Shown in pieces: positions 1-12,874 of a stretch of 12,874 bases of DNA. The stretch is from Chloroflexota bacterium (GTDB lineage: Bacteria; Chloroflexota; Anaerolineae; Anaerolineales; Villigracilaceae). The notes below the pieces were generated by a model, which saw nothing but the letters and a program-made list of their open reading frames with translations, was not told where the DNA came from and made no database searches. The stretch covers positions 1 to 12,874 of the forward strand of contig JAMDBC010000065.1 in the NCBI GenBank assembly GCA_023484185.1. The letters are read 5' to 3'. Position 1 is the first letter of the stretch. The number at the start of each line of letters is the position of its first letter. The position numbers were made by a program, and so were the translations under genes.

Positions 1-339
1 GGCTGGCGAACTAAAGGCCAGCACGGTTGCCACCGCCGCGCCATTATATTGAACGGAAAACGTCCACATCGAATTGAAGACCGCAAGTGTCAGGCCGTAG
101 AATAAGATGAACGGCCAGTGTGGTTTCTCAAGATGGAATCGTTTGCGGCTGAAAAGCAAAAGTCCGGCCAGCATCCCGAACGAAACGAACAGGTCACGCC
201 AAAAGGCCAGCACGAGCGATGGAAGCTGATAATGCGTGCTCAAATAACTGATCAGCACGCCGGTGGTCGACCATAACAGCGTGGCAAGGATGGCGATGAA
301 ATATCCGCGCGAAAACGTGGATGGTGGTTGTATCTTCAT
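1..339 (-). CDS. EamA/DMT-family membrane transporter (N-terminal part)
   Basis: Reading the complement from ATG at 339 gives 113 uninterrupted codons that run off the left edge of the window. The translation is strongly hydrophobic. A first membrane segment at about residues 13-32 carries the LLWSTTGVLIS stretch, a second lies at about 43-63 (LVLAFWRDLFVSFGMLAGL), a charged loop follows (SRKRFHLEKPHW), a third segment is at about 76-90, and a fourth begins at about 101. A TGV/LIS first helix, a WRD second helix and an AAVATVL motif near residue 105 are typical of EamA (drug/metabolite transporter, RhaT-like) half-repeats. The family is made of ten-helix inner-membrane permeases, so roughly the first third is visible. 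The substrate is unknown. No Shine-Dalgarno sequence precedes the ATG. It is transcribed divergently from the c-di-GMP operon. Family call fairly sure; substrate not. Confidence 0.82.
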   Translation of the reverse strand, partial: MKIQPPSTFSRGYFIAILATLLWSTTGVLISYLSTHYQLPSLVLAFWRDLFVSFGMLAGLLLFSRKRFHLEKPHWPFILFYGLTLAVFNSMWTFSVQYNGAAVATVLAFSSPA

Positions 340-348
340 GGCGGCTGG

Positions 349-354
349 ATTGTA
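349..354 (-). promoter_or_regulatory. possible -10 box of the EamA gene (near-leaderless start)
   Basis: On the minus strand TACAAT (5 of 6 to TATAAT) ends 9 nt before the ATG at 339. The base seven positions downstream of it would lie only about 3 nt before the ATG, which would give an almost leaderless transcript. That agrees with the missing Shine-Dalgarno sequence. The -35 region (TTTTCC at 17 nt spacing) is poor, so this is tentative. Confidence 0.3.
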
Positions 355-555
355 ACCCGAAGTCACAGAGCGGAAAAGAATATTGGGTGCATCGGTCACC
401 TGTCGCCCATCGCAAGGCAGACGTTTTGCCGCAGACCCAAGCGCCCTGTCAACTTAAAGAAATTCGCGTTATAGTCAGGCAGAAAGATGGCGGCATCGGC
501 CTCCATGCCGAGCGCAATGCCCACCCGATGCCCGATCTGAACCTGTTGGATTAAA

Positions 556-631: not shown

Positions 632-3600
632 ATGAGCAAGCCCATTCGCATTCTTTACGTAGACGACAATGCGCTCGATCGTGAACTGGTGCGCGGCGCC
701 CTGGAAAAAGAACACGGCGGATTTAAACTTGTTACGGCCACTTCCCACAGAGACTTTGAAAAGGCCCTCGCCAAAGGCGGCTTTGACCTCATCCTGAGCG
801 ATTTCAACATCCCGGGCTTCGAAGGGCTGCAGGTTCTCGAAACGGTCAGGGCCAAAGACTTGAATCTGCCGGTTGTGATCGTGACCGGAACCGGGTCCGA
901 AGAGACCGCGGTTGAAGCCTTGAAACGCGGCGCATCAGATTACATCATCAAAACTCCCAAACATATCCGTCGTCTGCCGCGGGTAATCCACGCCGTGCTC
1001 GAAAAAAAGCAGGCAGAAGAAGCCCAACGTGAGATCGAACAGCAATACCGCACCTTGTTTCAAACAAGCCCCATTGGGATCGGCGTGGCTGACATGCAAG
1101 GCAACCTGTTGACCTTTAATGATGCCATCCTTCTCCCCGGCGGTTATACCCGCGCAGATATCAAAAAAATCGGCGGCGTCGCAGGCTTATATTACGATCC
1201 GAGCCAGCGCAACGAAGCGTTGGCGCTTCTAAAAAAGCAGGGTTTTCTGCGAAACCACCCGGTTCAGTTCAAACGCAAGGATGGCACGGCTTATGATGCT
1301 TTACTCACGCTGACCCCGGTATTTTTTCAGGGGCAAGCGTGCCTCCAAGCCTTAGTGGAGGATATCGCCGAACGCAAGCGGGCGGAAGAAGCGCTTCGGG
1401 ATAGCAACACGAAACTGGAGGGCATATTCAACACCATGATGGATGCTCTCATCACTATGGATGAGAAGCAGAAGATTATCAGCTTCAATCCCGCCGCCGA
1501 GCAAATGTTTGGATGCCCGGCTGACGAAGCCATTGGCCAAACGCTCAACCGCTTTGTTCCTGAACATGTTCGCAAAGAACATGGCCAGTTTGTACGCGCT
1601 TTTGGCCAATCTGCTGCGACCAAACGCTCGATGAGACATCCTTTCTTGGCGTTGACTTGTTTGCGCGCCGATGGCGAGGCGTTTCCGAGCGAAGTCTCCA
1701 TCTCACAAATTGAAATCGGTGGGGAAAAGCTATACACTGCCATCGTGCGCGATGTTACCGAACGCAAGCGGGCGGAGGAAAAAACCCTGCGACTCAACCG
1801 CCTGTATGCCACACTCAGCCAGATCAATCAAGCAATCGTGCGCGTGCGCGAACCGGAAGTCTTGTTCGAAGAAATTTGCCGCGTGGCGGTTGAATTCGGC
1901 CAATTTCGCATGGCATGGATCGGCTTGATGGACGAGACCGATGGACTGGTTAGGCCGGTCAAATTTGCGGGTGAGGAACAGGGCTATCTATCCAGCGTTC
2001 GCATCAAATATATGGATGAGAGCCTGGGACGCGGCCCGGTGGGTACAGCCATCCGTGAGGGGCGCTGCATTGTCTTCCAGGATATCGACACTGATCCGCG
2101 CATGGAGCCGTGGCGTGAGCAGGCTTTATTGCGCGGCTATCGTTCATTGGCGGCAGTACCATTTCGCCGAAATAATGTGGTCATCGGGGCGCTGACTGTG
2201 TATGCGGCAGAGCCTCACGGGTTTGATGTGGATGCCGAGAATTTACTGGAAGAAATAGGGAGCGACATTTCATTTGCGTTGGATTCCATGAATGCTGCGA
2301 AACAGCGCCAGCAAGCCGAGAATGAGCTCAAGCGTTTGAAAGATTTCAATGAGAATCTGATCAACAGCATGGCGGAAGGAATGGTGGTCCAGAATACGGA
2401 TGGATACTTCACCTTTGTAAATCCGGCGACCTCGGCCATGACCGGTTACCCGCCTGAGGAGCTTATCGGTTCGCATTGGACAAAATTCATTCCTGCTGAT
2501 CAGCAGGAAATTATTAAGGAGACTGACAAGCGGCGTCTGGCTGGCGAGGCCTCCCGCTATGAAATAGAATTCCTGCACAAAAGCGGGAAACGAATCCACC
2601 AGCTGGTCAGCGGCAGTCCGCTCTTTGAAAATGGGCAGTTCAATGGCACAATGGCAATTTTCATGGACATCAGCGAACGGGCGCAGGCGCAGGAAAAAAT
2701 ACGAAGATCCGAAGAACAATTGGCAGCTGTGATGGAAGGCAGCCAGTTGGGCTACTCAGACTGGAATATCCAAAAAGGCGAAGTACAAAGGAATGAACAT
2801 TGGGCAGGCATGCTTGGCTATACGTTGCACGAAATTGAAAGCACCTATGATACATGGGAGGAGTTGATCCATCCTGACGACCGCGCCAGAGCCAGGCAGG
2901 CGGTTCAGGATCATCTTGACGGAAAAACGCCCATCCATCATGATGAGTATCGGATGCGCACGAAAGACGGGAACTATCGCTGGATTCTGGATCATGGCAG
3001 GATCATCGAATACGATGCGCAGGGCCGCCCATTGCGAATGACCGCCACGCATACCGACATCACCGAGCGCAAACTGGCCGAGCAGCAGATCGCCAGTCAA
3101 TTCCTGCGCTTGAAAGCCCTGCATCATATCGATACGGCCATTGCATCCAACTTCGATCTGCGCGTCACGCTGGGGACCCTGCTGGATGAGGTGACTTCCC
3201 AGTTGAGAGTTGACGCCGCATCGATTTGCCTGTTCGATAAATATATGCTGACGCTCGAACACATGACGGGCACCGGCTTTTATTCAGGCGCTGGTCACAG
3301 CGCCAAATCGAAGATCTCGGAAAGCCTGGCCGGACGCGCCGTTATTGAACGCCGGATGGTTCACATTCCAGATCTGTCCGCGGCCGATATTGATTCCGTA
3401 AACGCAAACCGCTATCGAAGCGAAAAGTTTGTCTCTTATTATGCCGTGCCATTGATCTCCAAAGGTCAGGTCAAGGGTGTGATGGAACTTCTCCAGCGCG
3501 CGCCGCTCGAAGTCACGTCAGAAAGCATGAATTTTCTGGAAACATTGGCGGAACAGGCGGCCATTGCAATTGATGTTTCCAATCTGTTCAGCGATCTGCA

Positions 3601-4180
3601 AAAGTCCAACATGGAATTGGCTATGGCGTATGACGCCACCATTGAGGGCTGGTCACGCGCCATGGATCTGCGCGATAAGGATACCGAAGGCCATACCCTG
3701 CGAGTGGCCGAGATTGCCATGTTGTTGGCAGACAGACTGGGAATTAGCCAGGAGCAACAGATCAGGATCCGCCGCGGCGCTCTGCTGCATGACATTGGCA
3801 AACTGGGTGTGCCCGACTCAATTCTGCTCAAGCCCGGTAAGCTCACCGATGAGGAATGGGAGATCATGCGCCAGCATCCAACCCTGGCTTATAACATGCT
3901 GCAGCCCATTGATTACCTAAAACCATCGCTCGCTATTCCGTATTGCCATCATGAAAAATGGGACGGCACAGGTTATCCGCGCGGTTTGAGGGGTGAACAA
4001 ATTCCGTTGGATGCGCGCATCTTTGCCGTTGTGGATGTGTGGGACGCCCTGCGGTCAGAACGTCCATACCGCGCCGCCTGGTCACAAAGACAGACGTTTG
4101 ATTACATCCGTGAACAATCTGGCACGCATTTCGATCCGCAGATCGCGGAAGTTTTCTTGGACATGATTGCCAGCTCGTAA
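632..4180 (+). CDS. REC-PAS-PAS-GAF-PAS-PAS-GAF-HD-GYP cyclic-di-GMP phosphodiesterase
   Basis: This 1182-residue soluble protein should hydrolyse cyclic di-GMP under control of many sensory inputs. The N-terminal receiver domain (about 5-125) keeps the acidic pair D11/D12, phospho-acceptor D57, T85 and K107, so a partner histidine kinase, not encoded here, is expected to phosphorylate it. Then come PAS (about 134-248), PAS (260-378), GAF (386-556), PAS (570-685), PAS (695-815, with the FxxLIHPDD-like WEELIHPDD), and GAF (825-985). Most sensor modules end in the D(I/V)(T/S)ER or AER linker. The C-terminal HD-GYP domain (about 1000-1180) has H1021, H1053-D1054 (LLHDIGKLGVPD), H1082, H1106-H1107 and DGTGYP at 1111-1116, so the metal and substrate residues are present. 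No membrane segment or DNA-binding domain is seen. The start is supported by GGAG 8 nt upstream. It is followed after 81 nt by an opposing diguanylate cyclase. The ligands of the PAS and GAF domains cannot be predicted. Confidence 0.93.
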   Translation: MSKPIRILYVDDNALDRELVRGALEKEHGGFKLVTATSHRDFEKALAKGGFDLILSDFNIPGFEGLQVLETVRAKDLNLPVVIVTGTGSEETAVEALKRGASDYIIKTPKHIRRLPRVIHAVLEKKQAEEAQREIEQQYRTLFQTSPIGIGVADMQGNLLTFNDAILLPGGYTRADIKKIGGVAGLYYDPSQRNEALALLKKQGFLRNHPVQFKRKDGTAYDALLTLTPVFFQGQACLQALVEDIAERKRAEEALRDSNTKLEGIFNTMMDALITMDEKQKIISFNPAAEQMFGCPADEAIGQTLNRFVPEHVRKEHGQFVRAFGQSAATKRSMRHPFLALTCLRADGEAFPSEVSISQIEIGGEKLYTAIVRDVTERKRAEEKTLRLNRLYATLSQINQAIVRVREPEVLFEEICRVAVEFGQFRMAWIGLMDETDGLVRPVKFAGEEQGYLSSVRIKYMDESLGRGPVGTAIREGRCIVFQDIDTDPRMEPWREQALLRGYRSLAAVPFRRNNVVIGALTVYAAEPHGFDVDAENLLEEIGSDISFALDSMNAAKQRQQAENELKRLKDFNENLINSMAEGMVVQNTDGYFTFVNPATSAMTGYPPEELIGSHWTKFIPADQQEIIKETDKRRLAGEASRYEIEFLHKSGKRIHQLVSGSPLFENGQFNGTMAIFMDISERAQAQEKIRRSEEQLAAVMEGSQLGYSDWNIQKGEVQRNEHWAGMLGYTLHEIESTYDTWEELIHPDDRARARQAVQDHLDGKTPIHHDEYRMRTKDGNYRWILDHGRIIEYDAQGRPLRMTATHTDITERKLAEQQIASQFLRLKALHHIDTAIASNFDLRVTLGTLLDEVTSQLRVDAASICLFDKYMLTLEHMTGTGFYSGAGHSAKSKISESLAGRAVIERRMVHIPDLSAADIDSVNANRYRSEKFVSYYAVPLISKGQVKGVMELLQRAPLEVTSESMNFLETLAEQAAIAIDVSNLFSDLQKSNMELAMAYDATIEGWSRAMDLRDKDTEGHTLRVAEIAMLLADRLGISQEQQIRIRRGALLHDIGKLGVPDSILLKPGKLTDEEWEIMRQHPTLAYNMLQPIDYLKPSLAIPYCHHEKWDGTGYPRGLRGEQIPLDARIFAVVDVWDALRSERPYRAAWSQRQTFDYIREQSGTHFDPQIAEVFLDMIASS

Positions 4181-4261: not shown

Positions 4262-6505
4262 ATGACAGCCAAAAGGAAATCCGCTCAAAAATCAGCAAAC
4301 ACGAAGACGAAAAAGCTGACAACGCAGGTCGACGACCCACAGCCAGTTTTTCCCGTCGTCCCGGTGGCCGCCTCGATGGACGGATTGGAGGCGCTGCGCG
4401 AATCCGAAGAACGTACCCGTTTATTCCAGGGAATTCTGCGATCTGTTTCGGACGGTATTCTGGCGGTCAATCGTGAGAACCAGGTGCTTTTTTCCAATGA
4501 TCGCTTCGCCCAGATGTGGATGATTCCGCAGGAGATCATGGCTTCCAAAGATGACACTCGCCTGCTTCAATATGTCCTCGATCAATTATCCGACCCGCAG
4601 GTTTTTCTCCAAAAAGTCCAGGACCTGTATTACTCGAACGAAAAGAGTTTCGACACGCTGTACTTCAAAGACGGTAGGGTGTTTGAGCGCCTGTCGCGTC
4701 CCATGCTGGAAGGGACGGAAGTGAGCGGCAGAGTCTGGTCATTTCGCGATGTCAGCCTGCGCAGGCAGATCGAAAAAGAACTGGCGGATTCTGAAGCGGA
4801 ACTGCGCGCCCTGTTCGCCTCCATGCATGATGCAGTGCTGGTCATCGACCGGCAGGGAGTTTACCGCAAGATCGCCCCGACCAATCCCGGCCTGCTGGTT
4901 AAGCCGCCCGATGAACTGCTTGGTATGAATCTGCGGGATATTTTCCCCGCCGAAAAGGCTGTCCTCTTTGGCGGGATTATGCAACAGGTACTGGACACAA
5001 AAAAAACAGCGCAGATCGAATATGAACTTATCATCGCTGGCCGAACCACATGGTTCCAAACCACCATCTCAGCCCTGGATGAAGACAGCACGCTGTGGGT
5101 TGCGCACGATATCACCAATCGCAAGCAGGCTGAAGAAGGCCTGCGCACCGCCGAAGCAAACTACCATTCCATTTTCGAAAATGCAACGGTCGGCATTTAT
5201 CAATCCACGCCGCAGGGACGCTTTCGAAGCGTCAACCCGGTCATGGCGCGCATCTTCGGATTCGATTCCCCGGAAGAAATGCTCAGCAGCATTACCAGCA
5301 TCGAGCAGCAGTATTACGTGGACCCGGCCGACCGTCACAAATTCCAACAGATGATGATGGAAGAGGGGCGAGCACCTGAATTTGTCAGCCTGAACATGCG
5401 CAAGGACGGCTCGCACATCTGGATACAGGAAGACGCCCGCGCCGTAAAGGATGCAAACGGGAACATCCTGTATTACGAGGGCTTCGTCAGCGACATCACC
5501 GAGCGCAAGCAGGCGCAGGAGACGCTGCAGCGCGCCGAGCAACGCTATCGCGGTTTGTTCGAAGATGCGCCGGCCATGTACGTCATCACCCGCGAGGTCG
5601 AGGGTAGCCCTGTGGTGGCGAACTGCAACGAACTATTCTCGCGCACCTTGGGATACAGTCGTGATGAACTGCTGGAGCGGCCGGTGACAGACTTTTACTC
5701 GCCCGCTTCGCGCCTCCAATTGCTCGAAGGCGGCTACCGCCGCGCTCTGGCAGGAGAATTTATGATTGAAGAGCGTGAACTCCTAACCTACGATGGGCAC
5801 GTCGTTCCCGCTATGGTGCGCGCGGTACCCGAGCTTGATGCCGCAGGGCGCGTACTTGGCACCCGGGCCATGTTCGTGGACATCAGCGAGCGAAAGCAGG
5901 CGGAAGAGGAATTGCACCGTATCAAAAACAAGCTCGAAACCCTCAACCTCGAACTCCAGCAGTCGCTGGAGCGCGAAACACTACTGGCCTGCACGGACGG
6001 TTTGACCGGCTTGTACAATCACCGTCACTTCTTCGAACTTGCTGCCCGCGAATTCCACGCCGCCGTACGTCATCAAAGCCCGCTCACTTTCATGATGTTC
6101 GACGTGGATGACTTCAAACGAGTTAACGATATTTTTGGGCATGCCGCCGGTGACAAGCTGATGGTGGAGATGGCGCAGATTGCTGCCGCGCAGGTGCGCG
6201 CCTCCGATATGGTGGCGCGCTACGGCGGGGATGAATTCATAGCCATGCTGCCGCATGCCAGTGCGCAGCAGGCGCTGCCCATCGCGGAGCGCATCCAATC
6301 AGGTGTCAAGGCCATAGGCCTGCAAACCGGCAACGAAGCGTTGACTGTTACGTTGAGCATTGGCATTGCGGAGATGCGGCATGAACCAGTGGACAAGGAT
6401 GTCGAGCGCGTCATCCAGCGCGCAGACAAAGCGTTGTATACAGCAAAACAAAGCGGGCGCAATCGTACTGTGATCTTTGAAGAGGATGAGAAAGGAGCGA
6501 CCTGA
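4262..6505 (+). CDS. multi-PAS diguanylate cyclase (GGDEF)
   Basis: This 747-residue protein should make cyclic di-GMP from two GTP. After a basic, low-complexity N-terminus (residues 1-40, rich in Lys and Ser) it has four PAS modules at about 50-165, 178-290, 298-415 and 425-545. The last three are joined by NRKQAEE-, ERKQAQE- and ERKQAEE-type coiled linkers. A short coiled coil (545-575) leads into the GGDEF domain (about 576-742), which starts with the DGLTGLYNHRHFF signature. The metal-binding FDVDDFK is at 613-619, the active-site motif GGDEF at 655-659, and the inhibitory RxxD I-site (R646-D649) sits at the canonical distance before it. An active, product-inhibited enzyme is therefore expected. 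No transmembrane segment is seen. GGAG lies 7 nt before the ATG, and the 81-nt gap to the phosphodiesterase gene shows no terminator, so the two are probably co-transcribed. AAAGGAG near the 3' end serves the start at 6505. Confidence 0.93.
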   Translation: MTAKRKSAQKSANTKTKKLTTQVDDPQPVFPVVPVAASMDGLEALRESEERTRLFQGILRSVSDGILAVNRENQVLFSNDRFAQMWMIPQEIMASKDDTRLLQYVLDQLSDPQVFLQKVQDLYYSNEKSFDTLYFKDGRVFERLSRPMLEGTEVSGRVWSFRDVSLRRQIEKELADSEAELRALFASMHDAVLVIDRQGVYRKIAPTNPGLLVKPPDELLGMNLRDIFPAEKAVLFGGIMQQVLDTKKTAQIEYELIIAGRTTWFQTTISALDEDSTLWVAHDITNRKQAEEGLRTAEANYHSIFENATVGIYQSTPQGRFRSVNPVMARIFGFDSPEEMLSSITSIEQQYYVDPADRHKFQQMMMEEGRAPEFVSLNMRKDGSHIWIQEDARAVKDANGNILYYEGFVSDITERKQAQETLQRAEQRYRGLFEDAPAMYVITREVEGSPVVANCNELFSRTLGYSRDELLERPVTDFYSPASRLQLLEGGYRRALAGEFMIEERELLTYDGHVVPAMVRAVPELDAAGRVLGTRAMFVDISERKQAEEELHRIKNKLETLNLELQQSLERETLLACTDGLTGLYNHRHFFELAAREFHAAVRHQSPLTFMMFDVDDFKRVNDIFGHAAGDKLMVEMAQIAAAQVRASDMVARYGGDEFIAMLPHASAQQALPIAERIQSGVKAIGLQTGNEALTVTLSIGIAEMRHEPVDKDVERVIQRADKALYTAKQSGRNRTVIFEEDEKGAT

Positions 6506-7301: not shown

Positions 7302-8072
7302 TTATTTCAAGATCTGCAACATTTGATCGTAAATTCCCGGTGCGGCGACGATCACAGACTGTGGTGGAGAGATGAAATCCGGACTACCATCCATGGCGCT
7401 GACGCGCGCTCCAGCCTCCTGCGCGATCAACCCTGCAGCAGCTATGTCCCAGGCTTTGAGTGAAAGTTCCCAGAAGCCGTCTAGGCGGCTGGCAGCCACA
7501 TAACAACTGTCCAACACGGCCGAACCATGACAACGAACGCCCTGTGTCAATTTGGACATTTTCACAAAATTTTCAAAGTTGTTGCTTTCGGTGCTCCAGA
7601 CATCATATGGGAATCCGGTCACTAGCAGACTTTTTTGCAATTCCTCAGTATGAGACGCGTGAATCCTCTTTCCATTCAAGCGAGCGCCCTTGCCGCGTTC
7701 AGCAGAAAACATTTCGTGGCGCAGCGGATCGTACACGACGCCCAATTTGAGGTTTCCGCGGAAAGCAAAGCCTATTGAAACACAAAAGATCGGGTCATGA
7801 TGGGAATAGTTTACTGTCCCATCCAGTGGATCGATATACCAGATGTCTTCGTTCTGGCCTCTAATCTCGCCGCTCTCCTCGGTAAAGATATGGCCACCAG
7901 GAAAGCGCGTCTCGATTTCCTTAAGCAAAAAAGATTCCGAAGCATGATCGGCTTCGGTCACAAGGTCAATCACCCCCTTATAACTAATATCATGTTCCTT
8001 GTTAAAACCTTCCCGCAGGATCGCACCAGCGGATCGTGCTAGAGATTCAATATCGGACAGTGTTGGTTTCAT
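7302..8072 (-). CDS. inositol monophosphatase family phosphatase
   Basis: This is a 256-residue Mg-dependent phosphomonoesterase of the IMPase/SuhB superfamily, cytoplasmic, acting on inositol phosphates or related sugar or nucleotide phosphates. From the chosen start the motifs are DLVTEAD at about 36-42, FTEESG at 63-68 with the metal-binding Glu pair, WYIDPLDGTVNY at 78-89 with D81 and D84, GVVYDP near 111-116, and the C-terminal AWDIAAAG at 207-214. All are intact, and the length is normal for the family. The frame stays open upstream to ATG 8153 and ATG 8081. The ATG at 8072 (MKPTLSDIESLAR) is preferred because AGGA sits 9 nt ahead and the family normally starts here; the 27 extra residues look unlike IMPase. 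It is divergent from the ABC importer operon and leads into the small gene at 7271. Substrate not determinable from sequence. Confidence 0.9.
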   Translation of the reverse strand: MKPTLSDIESLARSAGAILREGFNKEHDISYKGVIDLVTEADHASESFLLKEIETRFPGGHIFTEESGEIRGQNEDIWYIDPLDGTVNYSHHDPIFCVSIGFAFRGNLKLGVVYDPLRHEMFSAERGKGARLNGKRIHASHTEELQKSLLVTGFPYDVWSTESNNFENFVKMSKLTQGVRCHGSAVLDSCYVAASRLDGFWELSLKAWDIAAAGLIAQEAGARVSAMDGSPDFISPPQSVIVAAPGIYDQMLQILK

Positions 8073-8174
8073 GAATTCCATTCCTAACGCGGCAACCAGG
8101 CGCACGGATGGCAAAGCGAGTGTCTGGCAAACGCAATTCTTCTTTTGCGTCATCGATTTTTTTAGCGTTTCTGC

Positions 8175-8301: not shown

Positions 8302-8329
8302 TTGACAAACAAAACATGCGGAGTATAAT
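8302..8329 (+). promoter_or_regulatory. consensus sigma70 promoter of the ABC importer operon
   Basis: A perfect TTGACA (8302-8307) and a perfect TATAAT (8324-8329) are separated by 16 nt, inside an A-rich stretch that could act as an UP element. Transcription would begin near 8336, giving a leader of about 17 nt that holds TAGGA (8338-8342) 10 nt before the ATG at 8353. This is the strongest promoter match in the window. Confidence 0.75.
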
Positions 8330-8352
8330 AACAAATATAGGACATACTCATT

Positions 8353-9216
8353 ATGACAGCTAAAAGGAAAAAGAGTGGATACGTTGCATGGGTGGGGTTT
8401 GCCCCGTTTTTGATTTTTTGTTTGGCATTTGAGATTGTGCCAATCTTTTTTTTGGTCCGGGGAAGCTTTTTTGACAAAACCACCGGGGAACTCACGCTTT
8501 CACATTACTTTGAGTTGCAGCGTCCCTTGTACGTAAATTCATTCCTGAACAGTATTGAACTTTCGGCGTTAACAGCCGCGGTTGGCGTGGTTTTAGGCTC
8601 GTTGATTGGTTATGCAATTTATCTCTGGCCGTCCGAGCGTGTTCGCGATGCGCTCATCACACTTTCCGATGTAACCACTAATTTTGCGGGGGCTCCCCTC
8701 GCATTCGCGTTCGTTGTGATCCTGGGATTGAATGGGGTCATCACACAATTCCTGATACGGTATTTTCACTACGATCTTTATCAGACCTTTAGTATCTATT
8801 CCTTCTCGGGGTTGGTATTGGCCTACGTGTATTTTCAACTGCCCTTGATGGTTTTGCTTATTCTCCCTGCTTTTGCCGGGATCAAAAAAGAATGGCATGA
8901 ATCGGCTCAAAGTCTGTCTGCCAGCGCCTTCCAATTTTGGTGGGATATCGGTATCCCTGTTTTAATGCCGTCCCTGATTGCCGGGTTTACACTGCTTTTT
9001 GCCAATGCATTCGGCGCGTATGCCACAGCTTATACGCTCGTTCAATCGAAGATGTCGCTGGTGACACTGCAGATCGGTTACATGATTGCCGGTGAAGTTC
9101 GGCAGGACCCAGGGATCGGCATGGCAATGGCGGTCCTATCCCTGCTCATTATGGGGTTGAGCATTGTCGTGTATCAGATAGCCACAGTTCGCGCTCATCG
9201 TTGGTCGAAATCCTGA
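8353..9216 (+). CDS. ABC importer permease, PotB-type
   Basis: This 287-residue inner-membrane permease of the BPD_transp_1 class is predicted to form the channel of an ATP-driven importer with the next gene. After a short basic N-terminus (KRKKSG), hydrophobic segments lie at about 11-35, 68-92, 112-134, 146-172, 205-228 and 256-278, the six expected for this class. The cytoplasmic EAA loop that contacts the ATPase is at about 180-206 (EWHESAQSLSASAFQFWWDIGIP). It keeps the ESA and IP elements but has Ser in place of the usual Gly. The overall pattern resembles permeases of the polyamine, iron and phosphonate importers (PotB/FbpB/PhnU relatives). TAGGA 10 nt upstream and the adjacent consensus promoter support the start. 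First gene of the operon. Substrate unknown. Confidence 0.88.
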   Translation: MTAKRKKSGYVAWVGFAPFLIFCLAFEIVPIFFLVRGSFFDKTTGELTLSHYFELQRPLYVNSFLNSIELSALTAAVGVVLGSLIGYAIYLWPSERVRDALITLSDVTTNFAGAPLAFAFVVILGLNGVITQFLIRYFHYDLYQTFSIYSFSGLVLAYVYFQLPLMVLLILPAFAGIKKEWHESAQSLSASAFQFWWDIGIPVLMPSLIAGFTLLFANAFGAYATAYTLVQSKMSLVTLQIGYMIAGEVRQDPGIGMAMAVLSLLIMGLSIVVYQIATVRAHRWSKS

Positions 9217-9240
9217 GACACCGGAGGCTGGAACCAGGAA

Positions 9241-10089
9241 ATGACGAAGAACTCTCAGAAGATCGGACGAGAATCCCGCAAGAAGCGCCGCGCCGCCGGT
9301 TGGCAAAGGGCTTTGATTGCGCTGTTTCTTTTTTACATGCTCCTGCCCATCGTCTCGACCTATGTCTTTTCGATTGCAACGCGCTGGGATCGCACCATCC
9401 TGCCCGAAGGATATACGCTTCAATTCTACGAAAAAGCTGTTCAATCTTCCTACTTCAATACCACACTGCGAAATTCACTGATCTTGTCGCTTGCGACGGT
9501 CCTCGTCAGCCTCATCATTATCGTTCCGACGGTCTATTGGGTTCACACGCGTTTAACGGGCGCCAAACCCTTGCTTGACGTGTTGATGATCCTGCCTTTT
9601 GGAATTCCTACTGTGGTGCTGGCGCTGGCCCTCATCCAGATTTATAACTTCGCTCCGCTGGCGCGTTCGCCCTACCTGTTGATCGGCGCAGTCGTCGTGT
9701 ATTCCATGCCGTTCATGTACCGGCCGGTGTCCAACGCATTACAGGCGATTGATTCACATACGTTAACGGAGGCAGGCCAAAGTCTTGGTGCGAACGTTCT
9801 GCAAATCCTGGCGGAGGTTGTCATTCCGAATATCCTGCCCGGAATTTTGAGCGGAAGTCTGTTGGTCTTTGCCACTGTTTTTGCGGAATTCACGCTAACC
9901 TCGTTGATTGTGGGCGCGAAATTTAAGACGTTTCCGCTGCTGCTTGTGGAATATACGCGCATCAATGGAAATGTTGCAGCGGCCTTCTCGGTGATTTCCT
10001 TTACCATTGCCTGGCTGGTTTCCATGATGATCCTGTGGGTGGGGACGAAGGGAAAGGCCGCATCGCTTGAAGCGATGCAGGCTCGCTAA
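9241..10089 (+). CDS. ABC importer permease, PotC-type
   Basis: This 282-residue second permease of the importer should pair with the product of the preceding gene. A very basic N-terminus (residues 1-23, many Lys and Arg) precedes the first membrane helix at about 24-46. Others lie at about 78-100, 112-136, 143-160, 202-222 and 247-267. The EAA loop is canonical at 177-201: EAG, then G183, then IPNILPG. The gene starts 24 nt after the previous stop. GGAGG is 13 nt from the ATG, longer than usual, while AGGAA directly abuts the ATG and is too close, so initiation may be modest or coupled. The stop at 10089 lies 15 nt before the ATPase start. The family is certain from the EAA motif; the substrate is not. 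Confidence 0.9.
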   Translation: MTKNSQKIGRESRKKRRAAGWQRALIALFLFYMLLPIVSTYVFSIATRWDRTILPEGYTLQFYEKAVQSSYFNTTLRNSLILSLATVLVSLIIIVPTVYWVHTRLTGAKPLLDVLMILPFGIPTVVLALALIQIYNFAPLARSPYLLIGAVVVYSMPFMYRPVSNALQAIDSHTLTEAGQSLGANVLQILAEVVIPNILPGILSGSLLVFATVFAEFTLTSLIVGAKFKTFPLLLVEYTRINGNVAAAFSVISFTIAWLVSMMILWVGTKGKAASLEAMQAR

Positions 10090-10104
10090 ACAAAGGATGA
10101 ATAA

Positions 10105-11169
10105 ATGGCATATCTGGAATTGAAAAACGTATCCAAATCATATTCCGACGTTGACGTTGTGCATGACTTCAATCTAGACATCGAAAAGGGAACACTCGTT
10201 TCCCTGTTAGGGCCTTCCGGCTGCGGCAAGACAACCACATTGCGGATGATCGCCGGATTTGAGCAATTGGATGATGGTTCGATCCAACTCGATGGCAGCG
10301 ATATCACCGGCATTCCGCCCAACCGGCGTGACATCGGTATGGTCTTTCAGGCGTATGCGCTATTCCCGAATAAGACCGTCCGCGAGAATATTTCCTTTGG
10401 TCTTCGGATGAAGAAGACTCCGAAGAATGAGATCTGGAAAAAGGTTGATACCGTTCTTGAAATGGTGCGCTTGCAGGAAACCGCCAACCGCTATCCTCAC
10501 CAGCTTTCCGGCGGACAGCAGCAACGCATCGCGCTGGCGCGTGCTCTGGCCGTGCAGCCGCGCGTCCTGCTTCTGGATGAACCGTTATCCGCCTTGGATG
10601 CGGAAGTGCGAGTGGTGCTGCGTGGAGAGATTCGCCGCATTCAATCCGAACTGGCGATCACCACTGTTTACGTAACGCACGATCAGGAAGAAGCCTTGTC
10701 CATTTCAGATAAAGTCGTTGTGATGAATAAGGGCCTTATCGAACAGGTTGGCGCTCCAGAAGAAATTTACCGCGCTCCGCAGACGCGCTTTGTCGCAACG
10801 TTCATCGGCACTGCCAATCAATTCCTGGGGATCGCTTCGGGCAGGGACGCGGTGGTTTGCAAGAATATCAAATTGTTTGCGGATGGTGTGAAGAGTTTCA
10901 CCGACGGGCAGGAAGTGGTTGCGCTGGTACGACCGGAGAATATTCAGGTCCAGGCCGTGCAGCCGCAACGCAGCGATTGGAATGTGATTCCCGGTGTGGT
11001 TGAGACGATCACATTCCACGGCGCGGTCACGCGTCTCGGTGTAAACGTAAACGGTCAACGGGTTGTGGCTGACGTGACGGTTGCCAATACCAAACCGGTT
11101 TCATTAAACCAGAAGATCTGGTTGATGTTCCCTCCAAGCACCTGTCAGGTGATGGCTGTAATAGAATGA
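10105..11169 (+). CDS. ABC importer ATP-binding subunit, PotA/FbpC-type
   Basis: This 354-residue cytoplasmic ATPase powers the importer. Walker A is GPSGCGKT (36-43), the Q-loop glutamine is Q82 (VFQAYALFP), the signature is LSGGQQQR (134-141), Walker B is LLLDEP (155-160) followed by the D-loop SALD, and the switch histidine is H192 (YVTHDQEEA). The C-terminal extension (about 235-350) has the RPENI motif at 276-280 and ends in a TOBE-type ligand or regulatory fold. This is the layout of PotA, FbpC and CysA-like subunits rather than amino-acid importers. AAAGGA stands 7 nt before the ATG. The last codons overlap the next gene by four bases (ATGA at 11166-11169), which implies translational coupling. 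All catalytic residues are present, so it should be active. Confidence 0.93.
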   Translation: MAYLELKNVSKSYSDVDVVHDFNLDIEKGTLVSLLGPSGCGKTTTLRMIAGFEQLDDGSIQLDGSDITGIPPNRRDIGMVFQAYALFPNKTVRENISFGLRMKKTPKNEIWKKVDTVLEMVRLQETANRYPHQLSGGQQQRIALARALAVQPRVLLLDEPLSALDAEVRVVLRGEIRRIQSELAITTVYVTHDQEEALSISDKVVVMNKGLIEQVGAPEEIYRAPQTRFVATFIGTANQFLGIASGRDAVVCKNIKLFADGVKSFTDGQEVVALVRPENIQVQAVQPQRSDWNVIPGVVETITFHGAVTRLGVNVNGQRVVADVTVANTKPVSLNQKIWLMFPPSTCQVMAVIE

Positions 11170-12635
11170 TCTTCATCAACGCGCACGAACTGGTTCTTGA
11201 TAAGCAGGAGAGGTTGGAAGCCTGGACCTCTTATGACCGCGTTGTACGTTCGGCGATGGACTTCGTCAAGAATTGTCCTGTTAATCGGGCAAATGGTTTG
11301 CCGTGGTATTTGCAGTATTCCTGCTTTTGGACTGATCCGCTTCGTCCGACTCTCTGGCCGGATAACCCCGCGGGGAAATTTGCGTGGGCCGTGACCACGC
11401 TGCTTAAGTATTATCCGTATTCGGGCGATGCCAGCCATATACAAATTGTCCGCACGATGCTCGACCGTCTTTGGGAATATCGTACGCCGAGTCACTATGA
11501 TTGGCCGGATGTTCCCTATGCTTCAGCTCATCCTGGAACGGGAGTGTACTTCGGCGCGCGTGCGGACGGCGTCTATGCCACCGAGCCGGATAAGATCGCG
11601 CAGGCGGGGAGGGCCTACATAGACTTTTATGAATTGACCGGCGAAAGGAAATATCTGGAAATCGGCTCGCGGTGCGCGGAGGTGTTGGCGCAGAAAATCC
11701 GACCCGGCGATGGGTCCCATTCACCGTGGCCTTTTCGGGTTGATGTGCGCGATGGACACATCGTTGAAGAATATACCGCGCATTGGATTCCCGCGGTCAA
11801 ACTGTTCGATGAGCTAACTCGATTGAACGAGGGCAACTATAAGACCGTGCGGAACCAGGTCTGGGACTGGATCGAGAAATATCCACTTCAAAACAACGTC
11901 TGGAAGGGGCATTTCGAAGATATCCGTCTCGATCCCGATAACGAAAACCGCGACCAATTATCGTCGTTGGAAACGGCGCGTTATATCCTCCAAAACAAGG
12001 AGCAATTCCCAAAATGGAAAGAAACAGTTAAGGCCCTGATTGATTGGGTGAAAGATACATTCGGTGGGCATCCTTTCTTTACGGCGATCCCAATCCATGA
12101 GCAGAAGTTTTGTTATTTCCCGATGGGCAGCCATACGGCGCGTTTCGCCAATCTTTCAGCTCTTTACGCGGAGCAAACCGGCGACCCGACATACAAAGAA
12201 CAGGCGCTTCGTTCCTTTAATTGGGCTAGCTATATGGCGAACAATGACGGTATCGTAACTGTTGGTGTGGATCGGCCGGATTACTATAACCAATGTTGGT
12301 TCACTGATGGTTACTTTGATTACGTTCCGCATTTTATAGATGGCATGGCGGCGATGCCCGAACTTGCTCCTGTGGATATAGATCGCATGCTGCGGTCAAC
12401 CTCGATGGTGCAAGAGATCGTTTACAAACCATATCAAGTCTCTTACCGGACATTTGATACGGATGGCGCCCAGAAGCTGCGTTTAACGTTCCAGCCTTGC
12501 CAGATCCTCGCAGATGGGAAACCGCTCTCGCAGCAAAAAACGGCGAGTGATCAATCCGGATGGAATTTTGATTCCACTTTGAATGTTTTGATCATTAAAC
12601 CGGGCTCCCGGGAAGTGGTCATTGCAGGACGTTGA
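11166..12635 (+). CDS. (alpha/alpha)-barrel, six-hairpin glycosidase-like protein
   Basis: This 489-residue protein has no signal peptide or membrane segment, so it probably acts in the cytoplasm on what the importer brings in. It is rich in aromatic and acidic residues. It contains repeated helical hairpins of the A..Y..LTG(D/E)..Y type, clearest at about 149-178 (FYELTGERKYLEIG) and 328-358 (LYAEQTGDPTYKEQA), as in (alpha/alpha)6 toroid sugar enzymes such as unsaturated glucuronyl hydrolases and epimerase-like families. Conserved-looking aromatic or acidic clusters are at 105-136 (Y-D-W-P-D, RADG) and 371-392 (CWFTDGYFDY). A smaller beta-rich C-terminal part covers about 420-489. I cannot place it in a specific glycoside hydrolase family or name catalytic residues. 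The four-base overlap with the ATPase gene ties its synthesis to the transporter. A non-hydrolytic role (epimerase, lyase) is possible. Confidence 0.6.
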   Translation: MIFINAHELVLDKQERLEAWTSYDRVVRSAMDFVKNCPVNRANGLPWYLQYSCFWTDPLRPTLWPDNPAGKFAWAVTTLLKYYPYSGDASHIQIVRTMLDRLWEYRTPSHYDWPDVPYASAHPGTGVYFGARADGVYATEPDKIAQAGRAYIDFYELTGERKYLEIGSRCAEVLAQKIRPGDGSHSPWPFRVDVRDGHIVEEYTAHWIPAVKLFDELTRLNEGNYKTVRNQVWDWIEKYPLQNNVWKGHFEDIRLDPDNENRDQLSSLETARYILQNKEQFPKWKETVKALIDWVKDTFGGHPFFTAIPIHEQKFCYFPMGSHTARFANLSALYAEQTGDPTYKEQALRSFNWASYMANNDGIVTVGVDRPDYYNQCWFTDGYFDYVPHFIDGMAAMPELAPVDIDRMLRSTSMVQEIVYKPYQVSYRTFDTDGAQKLRLTFQPCQILADGKPLSQQKTASDQSGWNFDSTLNVLIIKPGSREVVIAGR

Positions 12636-12815
12636 ATTCGATCCGAACCGCATTCGTCAAGACCCTTATGGTCACGGTCGATTCATCAGTTGCTTGGATT
12701 TGGAATTTAGGAAAGGAGGCGGTCACCCCGGAAGTGCATCACTGTTTCGCGAGCTTCGTTGGTGAGGTCAATCGTTCAACGGCTGACCCATAATTCAAAC
12801 AAAAGGAGAGTCAAG
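12636..12815 (+). other. 180-nt spacer before the exported protein gene
   Basis: This gap is much longer than the other spacings in the operon. It contains an AAAGGAGG-like sequence near 12712-12719 that is not followed by a convincing gene, a 5-bp stem GGTCA/TGACC (12766-12770 with 12784-12788) without a T-tract, and a 47-codon open frame from TTG 12622 to TGA 12765 with no good start signal. No clear promoter or terminator is visible. An mRNA segment that alters expression of the following gene relative to the upstream genes is possible. Confidence 0.4.
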
Positions 12816-12874
12816 ATGTCTAAGAGAATCACTTTGTTCGTGGGATTAATCACGGTGTTCGTTCTAGCGCTTTC
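12816..12874 (+). CDS. exported protein, N-terminus only; probably the solute-binding protein
   Basis: ATG at 12816 follows AGGAG (12804-12808) by 7 nt, the best ribosome binding site in the operon. The 19 complete codons before the window edge read MSKRITLFVGLITVFVLAL. This is a basic start followed by a hydrophobic core, as in a signal peptide or lipoprotein signal. The rest is outside the window. The upstream genes supply two permeases and an ATPase but no binding protein, so a substrate-binding protein is the expected product; a strong ribosome binding site fits the high level such proteins usually need. Any other secreted protein would look the same at this length. Confidence 0.6.
   Translation, partial: MSKRITLFVGLITVFVLAL

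Follow-up and report, generated by a model that had tools for sequence, protein, structure and literature searches.

A 12,874-nucleotide stretch of the Chloroflexota contig JAMDBC010000065.1, hereafter called the window, ends in five genes on one strand. These encode two permeases and the PotA-class ATPase of an ATP-binding cassette (ABC) importer, an (alpha/alpha)6-toroid protein here called ENZ, and the start of an exported solute-binding lipoprotein (Table 1). We read this arrangement, with a probability of about 0.5, as the 5' half of an operon through which an Anaerolineales-like bacterium would break down a sugar-containing, probably anionic compound. This compound would be cleaved by ENZ and further processed by an isomerase, a kinase, an aldolase and a triose-phosphate isomerase (TIM). 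The operon is real, conserved and coherent; the pathway follows a well-known pattern, and ENZ belongs to an unnamed family. The order permease-permease-ATPase-enzyme-exported protein on the plus strand, first noted from the DNA letters without database searches (the sequence-only reading), was confirmed by the open reading frame (ORF) list and by Pfam and NCBIfam matches.

The genes around ENZ were compared in 18 related loci by tblastn with the proteins of Pelolinea submarina (locus L006); ENZ served to retrieve every one of them, and the counts therefore describe its neighbours. The ATPase and permease 2 occur in 18/18 loci and permease 1 in 17/18 (the DNA of L011 ends on that side), and they are accompanied by genes for the aldolase (17/18, not L004), the FGGY kinase (16/18, not L003 and L004), an L-arabinose-isomerase-like protein (15/18, not L002, L003 and L004), and TIM and YjbQ (14/18 each, not L002, L003, L004 and L011). 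In every one of these absences the fetched DNA stops short of the gene. Also, a DeoR-type regulator is found in 13 of the 18 clusters, and a galactokinase-like GHMP kinase gene in 14 of the 18 loci, two of the others being cut on that side (L011, L018) and two lacking the gene in the DNA fetched (L015, L016). This content (ABC genes, isomerase, kinase, aldolase, TIM and YjbQ) makes a catabolic operon most likely. The expectation that the enzyme gene would stay with the ABC genes in relatives was thus borne out. The proposal of a dedicated uptake-and-processing route agrees with the conserved cluster but has to be amended, ENZ being one gene among isomerase, kinase, aldolase and TIM and not the whole processing route.

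The ATGA overlap between ENZ and its upstream gene is found in 16 of the 18 loci as well as in the window, and is absent from L013 and L015. The overlapping partner is the ATPase in 11 loci and the window, and the FGGY kinase in five (L007, L008, L012, L014, L016), which indicates that ENZ is tied to the operon and not to the ATPase as such. The translational coupling to the ATPase claimed by the sequence-only reading is therefore genuine as an overlap, but the special tie to the ATPase is positional. Taken with the presence of the ATPase and permease 2 at all loci, the retention of the overlap makes the arrangement more than a chance one.

In the proposed route, the binding protein, both permeases and the ATPase would import the compound, and cytoplasmic ENZ would cleave it, freeing an aldose. 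The metal-dependent, L-arabinose-isomerase-like isomerase would turn the aldose into a ketose, the FGGY kinase would phosphorylate the ketose, most likely at C1, and the Schiff-base aldolase would split the ketose phosphate into dihydroxyacetone phosphate (DHAP) and an aldehyde, with TIM passing DHAP to glycolysis. We infer DHAP as the product from the family of the aldolase and the presence of the TIM gene. The genes for isomerase, kinase, aldolase and TIM are expected past the end of the window, as in the relatives.

Families of the catabolic proteins were assigned with Pfam and NCBIfam on the Pelolinea cluster, which encodes a GHMP kinase, an SBP_bac_6 protein, a DeoC/LacD aldolase, an FGGY kinase, an Arabinose_Iso_C isomerase, a DeoR protein, TIM and YjbQ. 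Residue conservation was assessed in ENZ loci having the gene (isomerase 11 of 15, aldolase 12 of 17, TIM 13 of 14, kinase 11 of 16), to which two loci with related cassettes discussed below were added, L124 and L125 for isomerase and aldolase and L125 for the kinase. The isomerase shares with L-arabinose isomerase its C-terminal domain and the positions E298, E321, H336 and H435/H436 (L006 numbering), invariant in 13/13 and aligned with what we take to be the Glu/Glu/His/His metal ligands of that enzyme, but by the NF002795 cut-off it is not an orthologue (82.6 bits, cut-off 622). The aldolase scores 67 bits against PF01791 (cut-off 23.8) and lies below every NCBIfam cut-off among the matches listed; with LsrF, MJ0400 and archaeal class I fructose-bisphosphate aldolase it has in common the DeoC/LacD family and a lysine, invariant in 14/14, which aligns with the presumed Schiff-base lysine of LsrF and MJ0400. 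The kinase passes both FGGY models (PF00370, 211.8 bits; PF02782, 126.7 bits) and its MDQ aspartate is invariant in 12/12. TIM exceeds the NF003302 cut-off (183.4 bits against 132), and K17, H98 and E146, presumably the catalytic residues, are invariant in 13/13. The divergent GHMP kinase has as its closest solved relative PDB entry 9ulx (AbGHMP; E 3e-104), for which a literature search under name and entry codes found no paper. The best 50 structural matches of its model (predicted local distance difference test score, pLDDT, 74.8) are galactokinases and GalNAc kinase, 9ulx not being among them.

A fold search with the AlphaFold2 model of ENZ (pLDDT 84.6; predicted template modelling score 0.90) recognised an (alpha/alpha)6 barrel over about residues 16-407, as had been anticipated from a six-hairpin-type sequence. 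Confidence in the model is low at residues 122-136, 308-310 and 366-380, where several of the invariant residues lie. This fold is common to AGE epimerases and to the glycoside hydrolase (GH) families GH76, GH88, GH105 and GH127. At the sequence level, the window ENZ has no Pfam match above a curated cut-off and no NCBIfam match at E up to 0.1, and a search of PDB sequences with the ENZ profile gave nothing below E 0.03 (the best, Lin0763, at E 0.031), in agreement with the sequence-only reading, which left the protein unassigned. Weak Pfam matches to GH127, C5-epim_C, GH76 and GH88 occur in some of 38 ENZ members. For GH127 (PF07944) the window ENZ has no match at E up to 1, and 18/38 members do (best 6.9e-4); for GH76 (PF03663) it scores 9.8 bits against a cut-off of 25.9, with weak matches in 13/38 members; and GH88 (PF07470), weakly matched by 6/38, is absent from its listed Pfam matches. 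At E up to 1, the AGE profile PF07221 matches 0/38 members, the fold itself being that of the AGE epimerases.

Membership of ENZ in GH127 or AGE was considered and is not claimed, because profile comparisons gave no full-length match. Against alignments built from genomes of the class, the ENZ profile reached a probability of 52.4 over 70 columns and 0.5 over 43 columns with two GH127-type alignments (16 and 8 proteins), and 1.7 over 73 columns with an AGE-type alignment (22 proteins). The nucleophile of GH127 enzymes is a Zn-bound cysteine. In ENZ, C316 and C377 are invariant in the 38 rows of alignment A1, and among four distant relatives C316 is kept in one and C377 in none; most of these four retain R191, E/D251, D252, E312, Q313 and H323. 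In-frame insertions of about 30-40 residues were observed after about residue 283 of ENZ in L012 (7959-9530) and L014 (7725-9275), both containing strings of the GD-FA-LAMT type that resemble each other, as might be left by the in-frame insertion of a short repeat element.

The glycoside-cleaving role proposed for ENZ derives in part from related cassettes. Isomerases of at least 62% identity occur in 5 of 298 genomes of the class, the same five that have a close ENZ and no other; the wider isomerase family is found in 59 of the 298 (E up to 1e-30). Three genomes (G030, G064, G089) carry an isomerase at 46-48% and an aldolase at 40-43% identity with a GH4-type gene nearby and no ENZ match; a 42% FGGY kinase is found at two of these loci and none was seen in the G089 stretch. 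GH4 enzymes cleave glycosides, and the occurrence of a GH4-type gene in three cassettes that have no ENZ match suggests a similar function for ENZ. The GH4-type match lies above the Pfam cut-off in L125 and below the AglA NCBIfam cut-off in L124, and in L126 the assignment comes from an ORF that opens with the same residues as that of L125. L124 also encodes permeases and SBP_bac_1 proteins. Beside the isomerase-aldolase cassette of L125 stand two genes of the MTTB family, one for a class III aminotransferase and one of the GFO_IDH_MocA type; the cassettes of L124, L125 and L126 may serve the use of a glycoside that is methylated or betaine-like.

The importer and its binding protein offer some guidance as to the ligand. 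The ATPase exceeds the cut-off of TIGR01187 (potA; 358.3 bits against 355.6), the sole one passed among the best 25 of 195 NCBIfam rows and a broad subfamily model that does not fix the substrate, and stays below that of PhnT2, the 2-aminoethylphosphonate ATPase (TIGR03265; 417.3 bits against 457.7). The binding protein is cut off in the window, where it reads MSKRITLFVGLITVFVLAL from its ATG at 12816, an N-terminus like that of the relatives' SBP_bac_6 proteins (alignment A3). Ligand comparisons were therefore made with the proteins of relatives, namely that of Pelolinea (L006 9614-10744) and the 13 rows of A3. Among solved structures, 5t1p (E 1.2e-90) is closest to the binding protein; we take it to be a Campylobacter protein, and a literature search found no paper on it. 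It is followed by 8x1a, AfuA (E 4.7e-24), P5PA and a putative 2-aminoethylphosphonate binder, the last three being named or published with phosphate or phosphonate ligands. The hexose/heptose-phosphate importer AfuABC (AfuA, PDB 4r72-4r75), presumably of PotA/FbpC type, thus has a related binding protein; the cluster described here differs in adding isomerase, kinase and aldolase genes.

AfuA was initially classed as an iron binder. It contacts phosphate through S37 and T150 and sugar through H205, D206 and E229, the last three being the motif used in its description (PMC4546632). In a hand-read alignment with a numbering offset of two, S37 falls on S102 and T150 on T205 in the Pelolinea sequence; across the 13 rows of A3 this serine never varies and the threonine hardly does. 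D206 corresponds to D264 and is kept. The alignment suggests that the ligand is anionic, but not a hexose phosphate of the AfuA type. The charged or phosphorylated cargo proposed by the sequence-only reading is accordingly plausible in view of the phosphate-binding relatives, but is not supported as worded, several relatives being named as iron binders.

Several of the observations weigh against a catabolic operon in which ENZ cleaves an anionic glycoside. The window ends before every catabolic gene. The source names among the best 120 of 1133 ENZ homologues, where given, are hypothetical protein, no activity being known for any ENZ relative seen, and the replacement of ENZ by a GH4-type gene is an analogy, not a proof. 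In the search for solved relatives of the binding protein, iron-transport names are carried by 9 of the 12 rows, the entry of AfuA included, putrescine binders are also found among its relatives, and two of the three AfuA sugar contacts, the essential H205 and E229, are not kept. Furthermore, the best structural Z-scores of the ENZ model are with epimerases and not with hydrolases. ENZ could then be an AGE-type epimerase or aldose isomerase, inverting for example C2 ahead of the isomerase, with a free sugar imported and nothing hydrolysed; we regard this as unlikely, though an alternative to be reckoned with. An AfuABC-like uptake of sugar phosphate, with the kinase forming a ketose bisphosphate, the aldolase yielding two triose phosphates and ENZ acting on a phosphorylated glycoside, appears less probable still. 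It would be consistent with AfuA being a solved relative of known ligand whose phosphate contacts align, with the inclusion of class I fructose-bisphosphate aldolase in the aldolase family, and with the GHMP kinase or, in L016 and the window, a phosphatase flanking the operon. Against it stand the two sugar contacts that are not kept, the closest solved relative, 5t1p, for which we know of no ligand, and a kinase of FGGY type whose best matches are xylulokinase and autoinducer-2 (AI-2) kinase entries and not phosphofructokinase.

A variant of sulfoglycolysis, in which sulfoquinovose or its glyceride would enter a Chloroflexota sulfo-Embden-Meyerhof-Parnas (sulfo-EMP) pathway with ENZ as a new sulfoquinovosidase, is improbable. 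The succession aldose, ketose, ketose-1-phosphate and DHAP is that of sulfo-EMP, in which the chemistry of isomerase, ketose kinase and DHAP aldolase is alike, according to a review that places sulfoquinovose use in Chloroflexi species by way of the sulfo-transaldolase (sulfo-TAL) pathway (PMC12890257). The isomerase also matches SftI (NF048012), but weakly, at 54.3 bits (cut-off 700), which is lower than its match to L-arabinose isomerase, and none of the five ENZ genomes has a protein above the SftI cut-off. In contrast to sulfo-EMP, the scanned cluster proteins include none that was recognised as a reductase or dehydrogenase of sulfolactaldehyde; PF03446, which served as a test for the reductase, is uninformative, being present in 5/5 ENZ genomes and 14/14 controls. 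The Pelolinea genome has no GH31 match, though 4/4 other ENZ genomes have one, and this point is neutral if the sulfoquinovosidase is a new one. That ENZ is merely a passenger unrelated to the operon is very improbable: it stays in the cluster despite changing gene order and is found together with a close isomerase in 5/5 genomes, even if two of the 18 loci have no stop-start overlap and clusters without ENZ could not appear in counts obtained through ENZ.

Returning to the cleavage of an anionic glycoside by ENZ, a wider proposal is put forward tentatively, at somewhat less than even odds: that ENZ is the first member of a new sugar-releasing enzyme family, that the operon is an undescribed Anaerolineae route for an anionic glycoside, that two permease pairs may share one ATPase, and that some genomes have two binding proteins fused in one chain. 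A literature search, without most subscription papers, found no description of this cluster. A second permease pair with solute-binding protein (SBP) matches is present in 8/18 loci (L003, L004, L005, L007, L008, L009, L014, L016) and an MBL-fold gene in 6/18, with one ATPase match in each of the 18, so that a single ATPase may serve both pairs. Beside the ENZ cluster of L007, L008, L014 and L016, two tandem SBP matches were observed in one ORF of 709-746 residues, and the fetched DNA gave no further ATPase match; Pfam confirmed two SBP_bac_6 stretches for L008 and L014.

The 1133 ENZ homologues were recovered at E up to 1e-3, among them a protein identical to that of the window on a 21,403-base record; a search with residues 180-400 gave 448 proteins, with no functional name among the best 120 matches. 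The 18 loci, from a scan of genome contigs, belong to Anaerolineales, Anaerolineae and Chloroflexi records, among them one Candidatus Aquidulcis and one Pelolinea submarina, and the samples behind the records include lake sediment, groundwater, mine and cave. At the same threshold ENZ was found in 6 of the 298 class genomes (five close, one at 30%). Of 400 genomes drawn from the phylum 5 match: one is G001 once more, two are distant but clear, and two only just reach the threshold. Searches of plasmids by tblastn gave no match with ENZ, 96 records with the isomerase, all under 60% identity and the best listed at about 28%, and 79 records with the GHMP kinase, none covering 80%. A pattern search of viral contigs gave no match.

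Anaerolineae are common in anoxic environments, and their nutrients are often guessed. Here, knowing what a single binding protein binds and what a single enzyme catalyses would settle a nutrient and an enzyme family together. The cluster is carried by Pelolinea submarina, a named and completely sequenced strain, so growth tests are possible.

Table 1. Features of the operon and of the divergent gene upstream of it in the window.
Feature	Coordinates	Strand	Remarks
Inositol-monophosphatase-family gene, divergent	7302..8153	-	ORF list and Pfam
ABC permease 1, BPD_transp_1	8353..9216	+	287 aa; ORF list and Pfam/NCBIfam
ABC permease 2, BPD_transp_1	9241..10089	+	282 aa; ORF list and Pfam/NCBIfam
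PotA-class ABC ATPase, ABC_tran and TOBE_2	10105..11169	+	354 aa; ORF list and Pfam/NCBIfam
ATGA stop-start overlap, ATPase/ENZ	11166..11169	+	ATG of ENZ at 11166 overlapping the TGA of the ATPase
ENZ, (alpha/alpha)6-toroid protein with C-terminal beta domain	11166..12635	+	489 aa; predicted cytoplasmic glycoside-cleaving enzyme, probable
AAGGAG, like a ribosome-binding site, ahead of the binding-protein gene	12803..12808	+	seen in the sequence
Start of solute-binding lipoprotein gene	12816..12874	+	ATG at 12816; 19 codons; cut by the window end

The ENZ stop and the start of the binding-protein gene are separated by a 180-base gap. Rfam and tRNA scans of the window gave no matches. The similarity of permease 1 to its relatives in tblastn extends 17 codons 5' of the listed start at 8353 (8302-8352, plus strand), which may mean that translation begins farther upstream, at an unusual codon. 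The divergent inositol-monophosphatase-family gene may be a member of the regulon; one of the 18 loci, L016, has a 43% relative upstream of its operon. Farther from the operon, a partial EamA-family transporter gene (1-399, minus strand) is cut by the window start. Also, a receiver-PAS-GAF-HD protein of 1182 residues (632-4180, plus strand) adjoins a PAS-GGDEF protein of 747 residues (4262-6505, plus strand), the HD and GGDEF genes possibly forming an opposing pair in cyclic di-GMP signalling.

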